From the NCBI GenBank assembly GCA_029252685.1, contig JAQXAY010000238.1, forward strand, positions 1 through 36,282: a stretch of DNA of 36,282 nt, read 5' to 3'. The position numbers and the translations under genes are program-made. Source of the DNA: Saprospiraceae bacterium (GTDB taxonomy: Bacteria; Bacteroidota; Bacteroidia; Chitinophagales; Saprospiraceae). Shown here piece after piece: positions 21,356 to 28,672 of the stretch. Position 1 is the first letter of the stretch. Every line of letters starts with the position of its first letter. The notes under the pieces are model-generated. The model was not told where the DNA came from. It saw only the letters and a program-made list of their open reading frames with translations, and searched no databases.

Positions 21356-21518
21356 ACTACACGTAAAATTCTTTTGAATAATTTTCTTGTAAATCCCAAA
21401 ATAGAACCAAATTTGATAAATTGTAAATCTAAGATTGGGAAATGCCTTACATTGCGGTTCGAGGCAAAAAAATAAACAAATTGTTTTAAAAAATAATTCA
21501 AATTCAAGAGTTTTTTTG

Positions 21519-22889
21519 ATGAAGGCATTATTTAGACAGGTTGATATAACTTCTATTGTTTTTATTCGCATTGTATTTGGTGCCTTGGCATTTGGGGAAA
21601 TGATGGGGCTCTTTGCTTATTACCATTTGACAAAGGATACTTTTAATCCGGAAAAATTTCATTTCAGGTATCATGTGTTAGATTGGGTAAAACCACTGCA
21701 AGAACCTTATATGTCAATTGTTTTTGGTATTGGTTTAATAGCTAGTCTAGGGGTTTTATTCGGGAAATTCTATCGAGCATCTTGCCTGATTACCTTTGTT
21801 GTGTTGCTCTATGCTTTTAGTGCGGAGCAGTCCTTGTATTTGAACCATGGATATTTAATGATTTGGCTGTCGTTTATTTTGGCCTTTTTCCCAATGAACC
21901 GATCCTTTTCTTTGGATGTACATAGGCGGCCAGCATTGCGTCTTAAAACGGTTCCTGTGTACTATCAATTTATTCTAGCTTTCTTGATGGGTGTGGTCTA
22001 TTTTTATGGTGGTTTAGCCAAATTGAACCCGGATTGGATCAGGGCTCAGCCTTTGTTGATTTGGATGGAGTATAAGCGTAAGTTGTTTTTAATTGGACCT
22101 ATAGTCCAAAAAGATATCGTTGCTTGGGTCATGTCTATAGGTGGGCTTGCCTTTGACCTTTCCTGTGCTTTTTTGTTGATGTTTAAACGAACTAGAAAGC
22201 TAGGAATGACCTTGGCTATATGTTTTCATATAACTAATGTTTTAATTTTCAATATTGGTGCCTTCCCTTGGTTGTCTATTAGTTTAAGTTTGATGTTTTT
22301 TCCTCCGGATCTAATTCCTAGATTTTTGAATTGGATGGATAAGAAATGGTCTTTTTGGGCTCGAAAGCGAAGTACCTATAATAATCGATTCGCTTCATAT
22401 GTAGGGGCTATGGATATTTCTGCAAAAAAGTCGAGGTATATGCAAGTCTTGCTAATTTCTTTGGTAAGTTTTCATTTGCTTGTTCCATTGAGGCATCATT
22501 TATATTCGGGTAATGTAAACTGGACAGAGGAAGGGCATAAGTTTTCATGGAGGATGATGTTGAGGAATAAGAGTGGAACAGGAGAGTTTTTAATTAAGGA
22601 TGGAGATGGAGTATTAATTAAGCGTGAAAATGGTAGGTCTTATTTGAGTAGAAGGCAGCGACAAAAAATGTTAGGCCAGCCAGATATGATCCTACAATTT
22701 GGGCAATTCCTTGGAGCGGAATATAAAGCGAAGGGCTACGAGGATGTATCTGTTTTTGCCAATATCAGAATCAAGCTAAATGATAACGAGTATCAGCAAT
22801 TCATAGATCCTGAGGTGGATTTGATGCATCAAAAATGGCATGCTTTTGAGTCCGAAGACTGGATCATGCCATTTGAGTACTCACATTAA
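21519..22889 (+). CDS. HTTM / vitamin K-dependent gamma-carboxylase-like membrane protein
   Basis: A 456-residue protein with several membrane helices in its first 310 residues. It matches the VKG-carboxylase (HTTM) family along its length. [18 protein letters not shown] (107-124) corresponds to the NNHSYLYGL region of the animal enzyme. [14 protein letters not shown] (161-174) corresponds to the segment with catalytic-base Lys218 of human GGCX, here Lys168. [19 protein letters not shown] follows. A soluble C-terminal part opens [27 protein letters not shown], the most conserved block of bacterial members. The function of bacterial homologues is unsettled: vitamin K epoxidation, carboxylation and lipid-related roles have been considered. 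The frame also opens at a TTG at 21435, but ATG 21519 begins where homology begins. It ends 2 bases from the convergent FemAB-like gene. Confidence 0.85.
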
Positions 22890-27188: not shown

Positions 27189-27425
27189 ATGGATTATAAC
27201 TCTACACATTTAAATTCTATACTTTTTATCTACGGCGAATTGAATGACGATGAGGAGTCCAGTCATCTGGATGTTCTATTAACTGACAATGTTGCCTTTG
27301 ACGAATTTGAGGAGATTGATAGTACCTATCAGTTACTCAATAGTATAAATAGTAAGCCTAAGAAGCAGACTATTGATAATATTATGGAATACAGTAAACG
27401 ATCAGCTTCTGAAAATGTTGATTAA
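27189..27425 (+). CDS. Small anti-sigma-like protein
   Basis: 78 residues, acidic, with no signal peptide, membrane segment or cysteine. The pattern LNSILFIYGELNDDEESSHLD, then a short loop, then FDEFEEIDSTYQLLNSI, then a C-terminal segment TIDNIMEYSK, resembles the N-terminal cytosolic helical domain of anti-sigma factors (usual form: YGELxxEE ... L...L), without zinc ligands. Such stand-alone domains occur next to ECF sigma genes in Bacteroidota, but no sigma gene is present here. It lies between the metallophosphatase and recA, and a terminator follows at 27435-27457. The reading frame and its low-complexity-free composition make it likely to be a real gene. Function by pattern only. Confidence 0.6.
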   Translation: MDYNSTHLNSILFIYGELNDDEESSHLDVLLTDNVAFDEFEEIDSTYQLLNSINSKPKKQTIDNIMEYSKRSASENVD

Positions 27426-27434
27426 AAAATAAGG

Positions 27435-27457
27435 GCCGCTTTTAAAGCGGCTTTTTT
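27435..27457 (+). terminator. Intrinsic terminator after the 78-residue protein gene
   Basis: GCCGCT (27435-27440) pairs with AGCGGC (27446-27451), extendable by one T-A pair to a three-base loop, followed by six T. It starts 10 bases past the stop and separates this gene from the recA promoter. Confidence 0.85.
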
Positions 27458-27460
27458 AAT

Positions 27461-27496
27461 TTTTTGTTTAAAACAATTTGTTTTTTTAAACAAAAA
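27461..27496. repeat. Perfect 13-bp inverted repeat overlapping the recA promoter
   Basis: Left arm TTTTTGTTTAAAA (27461-27473) and right arm TTTTAAACAAAAA (27484-27496) are exact reverse complements with a ten-base spacer. The spacer holds most of the TTTG of the -33 box (27477-27480). This is the geometry expected of a repressor or activator operator, though the arms are very AT-rich. Confidence 0.65.
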
Positions 27497-27508
27497 GTTT
27501 TAAGTTTG
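27477..27508 (+). promoter_or_regulatory. recA promoter (-33 and -7 elements)
   Basis: TTTG (27477-27480), a 20-base spacer, then TAAGTTTG (27501-27508): an exact match to the Bacteroidota sigma-A consensus (TTG, about 19-21 bases, TAnnTTTG). Transcription would start near 27514 and give a leader of about 90 bases before the recA ATG. Confidence 0.7.
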
Positions 27509-27604
27509 TTTTGTGTTGGTCAAATATTTTTAAATATACTCGCTTTTTTTGAAGCTTTTTTTGTTAATATTTGTTCTAATACAAACCACTTAAACTCAGA
27601 ATAT

Positions 27605-28672
27605 ATGTCAAAGGAAAAAGAAGCCAAACTGAAGGCACTGCAGATGACAGTTGACCGCCTTGAAAAGACCTACGGAAAAGGATCTGTAATGCGTTTAGGC
27701 GATAAGCAAGTCATGGAGGTCGAAACTATTCCTACGGGGTCGTTGAGCCTAGATATTGCACTTGGTATAAATGGATTTCCTAAAGGTAGGGTAGTAGAGA
27801 TTTACGGACCTGAATCTTCTGGTAAAACAACATTAGCTATACATGCTATTGCAGAGTGTCAGAAGAATGGGGGGATTGCTGCTTTTATTGATGCAGAGCA
27901 TGCCTTTGACAGATTCTATGCAGAAGGATTAGGTGTTGATACGGAGAATTTATTGATTTCCCAACCTGATAATGGTGAGCAAGCGTTAGAGATTACGGAG
28001 AACTTGATTCGTTCTGGTGCAATAGACATCATTGTAATTGATTCGGTAGCTGCTTTAGTACCTCGTGCTGAGATTGAAGGAGAAATGGGAGATTCCAAGA
28101 TGGGTCTTCAGGCTCGATTGATGTCTCAAGCTTTAAGGAAACTAACTGCAGCAATTGGTCGCTCGGGATGTTGTTGTGTATTTATCAATCAACTACGTGA
28201 GAAGATTGGGGTTATGTTTGGTAATCCAGAGACAACCACAGGTGGTAATGCACTAAAGTTTTATGCTTCTGTGCGTTTAGATATTCGCCGTTCTGGTTCT
28301 GCGATAAAAGATAAAGAGGGTAATGTAAAGGGTAATCACGTGAAAGTACGTGTTGTGAAAAATAAATTAGCCCCTCCTTTTAGAATTGCGGAATTTGATA
28401 TCATGTACGGAGAAGGTGTTTCGAAAGTAGGTGAGATTATTGACATTGGTGTTGACCAAGATATCATAAATAAGAGTGGTGCCTGGTATGGATACGGTGG
28501 TGTTAAAATTGCTCAAGGCCGTGAAGCAGCTAAGCAATTTATGGTTGATAATCCTGAAGTAGCTAAGGAGATTGAAGAGAAAATTAAAGTTAAAATAGCT
28601 GGGCTTGATGTTGAGGAGGAACCAGTAACAACAGAGAAAAAGAAAGAGGAAGATTCTTCTTTAGTGAACTAA
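27605..28672 (+). CDS. recA: Recombinase RecA
   Basis: Strand-exchange protein for homologous recombination and, where present, the co-protease of the SOS response. From ATG 27605 the product is 355 residues, the typical length. Motifs: [13 protein letters not shown] (21-33), Walker [12 protein letters not shown] (68-78), [30 protein letters not shown], and the L1/L2 region [14 protein letters not shown] ... [22 protein letters not shown]. The tail is acidic ([17 protein letters not shown]), as usual. The open frame extends 47 codons upstream (Phe/Cys/Ile rich), but that stretch is the leader and promoter region, so the ATG before [12 protein letters not shown] is the start. It has its own promoter and is followed by a strong terminator. 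Confidence 0.98.

Follow-up and report, generated by a model that had tools for sequence, protein, structure and literature searches.

The window, the whole stretch of 36,282 nucleotides analysed from this Saprospiraceae genome, carries on its plus strand, by its sequence, a recA gene (355 aa, 27605-28672) preceded by a small open reading frame (27189-27425). The intrinsic terminator of the latter, GCCGC-TTTTAAA-GCGGC (GCCGC-N7-GCGGC) plus a T run on the plus strand at 27435-27457, ends three bases before a perfect 13-bp inverted repeat, TTTTTGTTTAAAA-CAATTTGTTT-TTTTAAACAAAAA, with a spacer of 10, at 27461-27496. A preliminary description of the sequence had pointed out this repeat, the nearness of its left arm to the terminator T run, and the TTTG of a consensus Bacteroidota promoter within its spacer, and all three are present as described. 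The TTTG (27477-27480, plus strand) is the predicted -33 element and TAAGTTTG (27501-27508, plus strand), after a spacer of 20, the predicted -7 element. Together they fit the Bacteroidota sigma-A type consensus, given as TAnnTTTG / TTTG for the main sigma factor of B. fragilis in the sections of PMC7366714 drawn on here. A second block at 27538-27586, in the recA leader, is largely kept in a same-genus relative and contains TTTGT-TCTAAT-ACAAA (27570-27585).

Two adjacent 17-bp palindromes, each with one mismatch to TAAAAC-N5-GTTTTA, overlie this promoter. Box 1, TAAAAC-AATTT-GTTTTT (27469-27485), spans the -33 TTTG, and the final TA of box 2, TTAAAC-AAAAA-GTTTTA (27486-27502), is the TA of the -7 element. 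Their starts lie 17 bp apart and their dyads fall at 27477 and 27494, with the dyad of the 13-bp repeat between 27478 and 27479; the repeat results from a match between GTTTAAAA, in the left arm, and the left half of box 2, which lies in the right arm. No other site with at most one mismatch occurs in the 36-kb window. Chance similarity in AT-rich DNA merits next to no credence as an explanation. The 179-bp recA upstream region is indeed 77% AT, and at least one site with at most one mismatch appeared in 117 of 5000 shuffles of it, but two such sites appeared in just 2 of 5000, the 17-bp spacing is diagnostic, and the box recurs at SOS genes and in other genera.

Taken alone the 13-bp repeat is unusual but not compelling, because perfect arms of at least 13 with a loop of at most 20 were found in 7 of 1000 dinucleotide shuffles of the same region. 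Its perfect arms and that low frequency are what could be said for the repeat itself being the functional unit, be it as an operator of its own, a cruciform or a second terminator. Such a role is most improbable. The full repeat, TTTTTGTTTAAAA-N10-TTTTAAACAAAAA, is single-copy in the genome and was found in 2 of the 48 recA upstream regions read, its own and that of the same-genus genome G001, whereas the 17-bp box is shared with other genes and other genera; on this lack of recurrence within the genome or beyond the genus the repeat was rejected as an operator, and its arms are too G+C-poor for a terminator. Conservation of the repeat in relatives, proposed earlier as a check, is found in G001, the sole same-genus genome with a readable recA upstream region, where it sits in a block identical to that of the window and the sequence farther out diverges. 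In G002, of the same genus, recA is a 3' fragment only. The earlier proposal of an operator placed on the -33 box of recA and blocking it very probably holds, with two amendments: the recurring units are the two 17-bp palindromes and not the 13-bp repeat, and the start of the -7 box would be covered as well as the TTTG.

The box was learned by EM on promoters of S24 repressor genes only, using no recA sequence, first on 20 and then on 75 non-redundant promoters (80 loci minus 2 with short upstream DNA and 3 near copies). The 75 promoters gave the palindrome TAAAAcAAaTTgTTTTA, 17 bp wide and 14.7 bits, with the consensus TAAAA(C/T)-N5-(G/A)TTTTA; even-width palindromes fitted worse than widths of 17 or 19. 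Best sites score at least 10 in 65 of the 75 and below 10 in the remaining 10. A second site (at least 7) lies exactly 17 bp away in 31 of the 65, the next commonest spacings having 4 each, and the spacing of the recA boxes is the same as this commonest one. The definition rests on repressor promoters because EM on 20 recA promoters alone did not place this palindrome at the top and scored wider, different palindromes better; without symmetry it returned AAACAAAAagTTTa. Loose matches carry no meaning, since the box is AT-rich and, at up to two mismatches, the genome holds 472 forward sites and 776 sites of the reversed control, without enrichment.

Within the same genome, scores of the matrix from the 75 promoters were taken over the 200 bp before each gene (250 bp for the parC-like gene) and set against 78 other upstream regions as background (median 1.6, 95th percentile 10.2, maximum 17.3). 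The recA boxes score 21.0 (box 1) and 15.4 (box 2). The sole Y-family (PF00817) polymerase gene has an upstream box of 21.0, two glucosaminidase genes have boxes of 19.1 and 20.9, the parC-like gene one of 14.8, and the repressor gene, for the protein here called SapLexA, an imperfect one of 12.8. Of the lexA-like, uvrA and dinB genes near which the preliminary description had proposed to seek the motif, the lexA-like and Y-polymerase genes carry it. The two uvrA genes and uvrB have no upstream box in this genome and were rejected as regulon members.

The placement of the boxes also allows the signal to be read as nothing more than a strong promoter, in which TTTG, TAnnTTTG and the intervening A and T tracts would be conserved for sigma and not for a repressor. 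Box 1 includes the -33 TTTG and box 2 shares its TA with the -7 box, which makes their conservation partly that of a promoter, and the 17-bp tandem spacing agrees with the -33 to -7 distance. This reading is nevertheless very unlikely. A set of 405 generic upstream regions yielded 14 matches to the promoter consensus, some of them nested, and none scores above -11.5 in the register in which recA box 2 reaches 15.4; the perfect box of one of the genome's own glucosaminidase genes, on C165, is read as lying downstream of its -7 box; and a second type of S24 gene has boxes 50-54 bp ahead of its start, often with another at about 20 bp.

SapLexA is a 241-aa S24 protein encoded on the minus strand of contig C93 (105-830), with a PF00717 match (E 8.8e-12), an Ala-Gly site and a Ser-Lys dyad. 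The residues A118, G119, S155 and K194 are invariant in 21 of 21 and in 35 of 35 aligned proteins. Pfam assigns PF00717 only and no HTH domain; the published non-canonical LexA proteins of Bacteroidetes begin with an all-helical CI-type HTH, known to Pfam as PF01381. An AlphaFold model of a protein 93% identical to SapLexA (L179; mean pLDDT 79.6, pTM 0.54) has LexA 3k2z as its best solved match (E 2.3e-5), with lambda/186 repressors lower, and places five helices in the first 85 residues; the canonical LexA winged-helix DNA-binding domain was not encountered in SapLexA, either by Pfam or in the all-helical N-terminus of the model. A ParA/Soj-like ATPase gene (L034:1115-1888, on C93) is oriented divergently to SapLexA, and a ParA-like gene is also present in the locus of one orthologue (L106). 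The contig ends just past SapLexA. In the two same-genus genomes a glucosaminidase gene follows SapLexA on the same strand (G001:C32:38639-40172 and G002:C36:6674-8196).

Two PF00717 matches occur in the genome, on C93 (SapLexA) and on C213. In the C213 protein (276 aa, L035:3433-4263) the catalytic Ser, which related proteins of the family (L366, L367, L369 and L370) retain, is replaced by Ala (GDAMEP); with no strong upstream box (5.6) and the serine missing, it was rejected as the regulator, and it is perhaps a non-cleavable repressor or partner. Orthologues of SapLexA (E 1e-53 or better) are present in 23 of 37 Saprospiraceae genomes and absent from the 23 others of the order. A search at E 1e-6 of 296 genomes sampled from the phylum gave near full-length matches from Saprospiraceae only; in 9 genomes of another family the match covered the C-terminal part. 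A scan of named records yielded 215 relatives, of which 80 were kept; their titles are Saprospiraceae, Saprospirales, Lewinella, Neolewinella, Phaeodactylibacter, Flavilitoribacter or the coarser Bacteroidetes, Bacteroidota, Bacteroidia, Chitinophagales, Sphingobacteriales and bacterium.

Type-2 S24 paralogues are also found in the family. Ten of their loci were fetched, one of them incomplete, and in all 9 where the gene was called a site of at least 11.8 lies 50-54 bp upstream of the start, often with a second site about 20 bp from it. By profile comparison, type-2 proteins match SapLexA over 219 columns (99.9%; N-termini 97.6%) and GGA-type proteins over 218 columns (99.9%), while SapLexA and GGA-type proteins match over the C-terminal 163 columns (98.4%), their N-termini giving no match. 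Among type-2 homologues outside the family, many of which matched mainly over the C-terminal half, CTAA-N5-TTAG (11) or GGA-N5-TCC (4) was found upstream in 15 of 19 readable loci of 24 fetched. Some Saprospiraceae genomes have, instead or in addition, a GGA-N5-TCC-type S24 gene beside a Y-family polymerase gene (L132 of G034 and L122 of G012), which suggests that SOS regulators have been swapped within the family.

The search of relatives covered 60 genomes, the 37 Saprospiraceae and the 23 others of the order, and the recA upstream region was read in 34 and 13 of them, respectively. The family omissions were G002 (3' fragment) and G011 and G019 (no recA match), and the second recA of G028 was dropped. 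Genomes with SapLexA (type 1) or a type-2 S24 gene were counted as S24-positive, giving 24 positive and 10 negative family genomes among those read; G005, G007 and G023, which have type-2 S24 only, were reclassed as positive once a perfect box had been seen at the recA of G023. The best recA box is higher in the 24 positives than in the 10 family negatives (Mann-Whitney p 7.5e-6, with classes partly set post hoc; p 6e-4 under the first classification and first matrix) and than in the 13 other genomes of the order (p 4.5e-6). With a cut of 9, picked after the scores had been seen, 20 of the 24 positives and none of the 23 negatives have a box, and the recA boxes of the 10 family genomes read that lack a repressor score 5.2 at most. 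The link between repressor and recA box amounts to few independent events, the negative label needing about two changes on the RecA tree. The recA boxes are weak in many relatives, and 4 of the 24 positives are without any of at least 9. A consensus promoter precedes recA in 20 of the 24 positives, and in 12 of the 24 a site of at least 6 overlaps that promoter.

The exact pattern TAAAACWWWWWGTTTTA was sought in the 60 genomes with the reversed pattern as control. The 26 S24-positive genomes hold 35 exact sites (control 13), in 14 genomes, and the site is absent from the other 12; the 11 negative family genomes hold 1 (control 3) and the 23 other genomes of the order 3 (control 5). In a hand tally from neighbouring frames and Pfam, 26 of the 35 sites precede named gene classes: 20 glucosaminidase (two of these assignments, G010:C285 and G023:C12, hinging on start-codon choice), 1 recA, 1 Y-polymerase, 2 parC-like, 1 parE-like and 1 dnaE-type. 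Two of the remaining nine lie within genes and seven are other or unclear. The genes termed parC-like and parE-like are presumably such, on Pfam together with known sequence features, since Pfam alone cannot separate them from gyrase; the parC-like exact sites lie 150 to 190 bp upstream of the start.

Homologues of the boxed polymerase, found by tblastn and scored with the first matrix, have boxes of 11.9 to 21.8 in G000-G003, G008, G011, G017 and G025, and of 8.3 in G032 and 4.9 in G028. Those of the SapLexA-bearing genomes G030, G016 and G012 have no box (1.3, -7.2 and -1.9), and those of genomes without SapLexA (G036, G034, G006 and G007) score -0.3 to 6.9. The boxed polymerase is a Y-family subtype other than Pol IV-type DinB; DinB of the latter type (RKIIHIDMDAF proteins) was rejected as an SOS gene, its best box among relatives scoring 7.0, short of a strong one.

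The most strongly boxed genes are the peptidoglycan glucosaminidases. At six loci, by coordinates, a type-2 S24 gene is divergent from a glucosaminidase gene (L306, L307, L308, L309, L310 and L312, that is G005:C96, G003:C109, G016:C199, G017:C93, G022:C317 and G031:C61), the box preceding the S24 gene in all five where that gene is called; two of the 20 exact glucosaminidase sites also face a divergent type-2 S24 gene. These loci, together with the preponderance of glucosaminidases at exact boxes (20 of 35, several perfect) and the imperfection of most recA boxes, would suit a real S24-bound box whose regulon is mainly a cell-wall or lysis programme, with recA secondary or weakly controlled and a signal that need not be DNA damage. 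We consider this unlikely. The boxes also stand at recA, Y-polymerase, parC-like, parE-like, dnaE-type and repressor genes, which is the SOS set of PMC8565304 as far as its main text goes, and the repressors retain their self-cleavage residues.

The preliminary description had regarded the SOS box of Bacteroidota as poorly defined. This does not hold, CTAA-N5-TTAG and GGA-N5-TCC having been published in 2021 for the non-canonical LexA SOS system of Bacteroidetes (Sanchez-Osuna et al. 2021; PMC8565304, main text), whose gene set includes topoisomerase IV, recA, polymerases and the repressor gene. Perfect sites of CTAA-N5-TTAG, GGA-N5-TCC or TTAC-N5-GTAA were sought in the 200 bp before recA and were found in none of 48 upstream regions. 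As described in that main text, the published system is like that of Saprospiraceae in its S24 repressor with an Ala-Gly site and a Ser-Lys dyad, in its 4-N5-4 palindrome geometry, commonly with two sites per promoter, and in having boxes at repressor, recA, Y-polymerase, dnaE-type and topoisomerase genes. In the genome of the window a 4-N5-4 palindrome precedes the repressor gene (an imperfect site), recA and the Y-family polymerase gene, and the type-2 paralogues of the family align with GGA-type proteins over their full length by profile. The systems differ in the dyad, which is AAAC/GTTT in Saprospiraceae (extended, TAAAAC/GTTTTA), in the glucosaminidase-rich set of boxed genes and the 17-bp tandem spacing, and in the N-terminal domain of SapLexA, which is diverged, does not align with GGA-type proteins and is not recognised by Pfam. 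The diverged 4-N5-4 boxes of Weeksellaceae, e.g. TTAC-AAATT-GTAA of Elizabethkingia anophelis (same main text), share the dyad-spacer architecture and an AC/GT core around an AT spacer, but their outer bases are TT/AA instead of AA/TT, and they belong to paralogues in one family, whereas the Saprospiraceae box belongs to another family and to a recA-polymerase gene set. On sequence comparison the Saprospiraceae box is best read as an addition to the boxes of the published non-canonical LexA kind, and SapLexA is predicted to be related to, and to work like, those LexA proteins, from which it differs in its diverged DNA-binding domain and in its box. Literature searches on SOS/LexA in Saprospiraceae, on LexA/DNA damage in Lewinella and on LexA-binding motifs in Bacteroidota since 2021 returned none, and the main text of PMC8565304 contains no mention of saprospir, lewinella, haliscomenobacter or aaac.

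The recA site is, with high probability, a tandem pair of SOS operators that would block both promoter elements until RecA triggers cleavage of the repressor. What the analysis shows is a pair of boxes spaced by 17 bp and placed on the promoter, the same box at other genes, conserved cleavage residues and a LexA/CI-like predicted fold. In the mechanism proposed, SapLexA would bind each 17-bp palindrome as a dimer, and two dimers 17 bp apart would lie over the -33 TTTG and the first bases of the -7 box, excluding sigma from the recA promoter. Upon DNA damage, RecA filaments would bring about self-cleavage of SapLexA at Ala118-Gly119 by the Ser155/Lys194 dyad, which would free recA, the repressor gene, the Y-family polymerase gene, the topoisomerase genes and several glucosaminidase genes. 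We infer repressor binding, cleavage, damage induction and, where two S24 paralogues exist, the choice between them. That the repeat region is the damage-response control site of recA, as first surmised, is very probable. Weak induction of recA would be unsurprising, because in S. agarivorans a boxed recA was not induced by mitomycin C (PMC8565304, main text).

For the family as a whole we favour, with somewhat less assurance, an SOS response running through TAAAAC-N5-GTTTTA, often in tandem at 17 bp, as a third box under a diverged S24 repressor, in which damage would couple repair to programmed cell-wall cutting. Such cutting after damage would amount to controlled lysis, DNA release or division arrest. 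A parallel is the mycobacterial cell-wall hydrolase ChiZ/Rv2719c, which is induced by DNA damage and restrains division (PMC3989709, in the portion used). The common feature would be a cell-wall hydrolase induced by DNA damage, induction being a prediction for the glucosaminidases; the phylum and the protein are different, and Saprospiraceae carry several boxed glucosaminidase paralogues per genome. The box would add to the published Bacteroidota set and show a paralogue with a drifted DNA-binding domain, would tie DNA damage to cell-wall hydrolases, and offers a testable SOS box, usable for annotating SOS genes across genomes, in a large, ecologically important and mostly uncultured family.

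Two further genes carry boxes. The HTTM / vitamin K-dependent carboxylase-like gene of the window (21519-22889, plus strand) has ATAAACAAATTGTTTTA at 21472-21488, 47 bp upstream; its score of 17.3 is the highest among the 78 background genes, and the gene is a possible further regulon member. A 231-aa protein with no Pfam match and an MKKQ.. N-terminus (L150:1606-2298, G000:C134) occurs in 15 of 24 family genomes searched, with upstream boxes of 16.7, 11.7 and 16.6 in the three genomes of its own genus.
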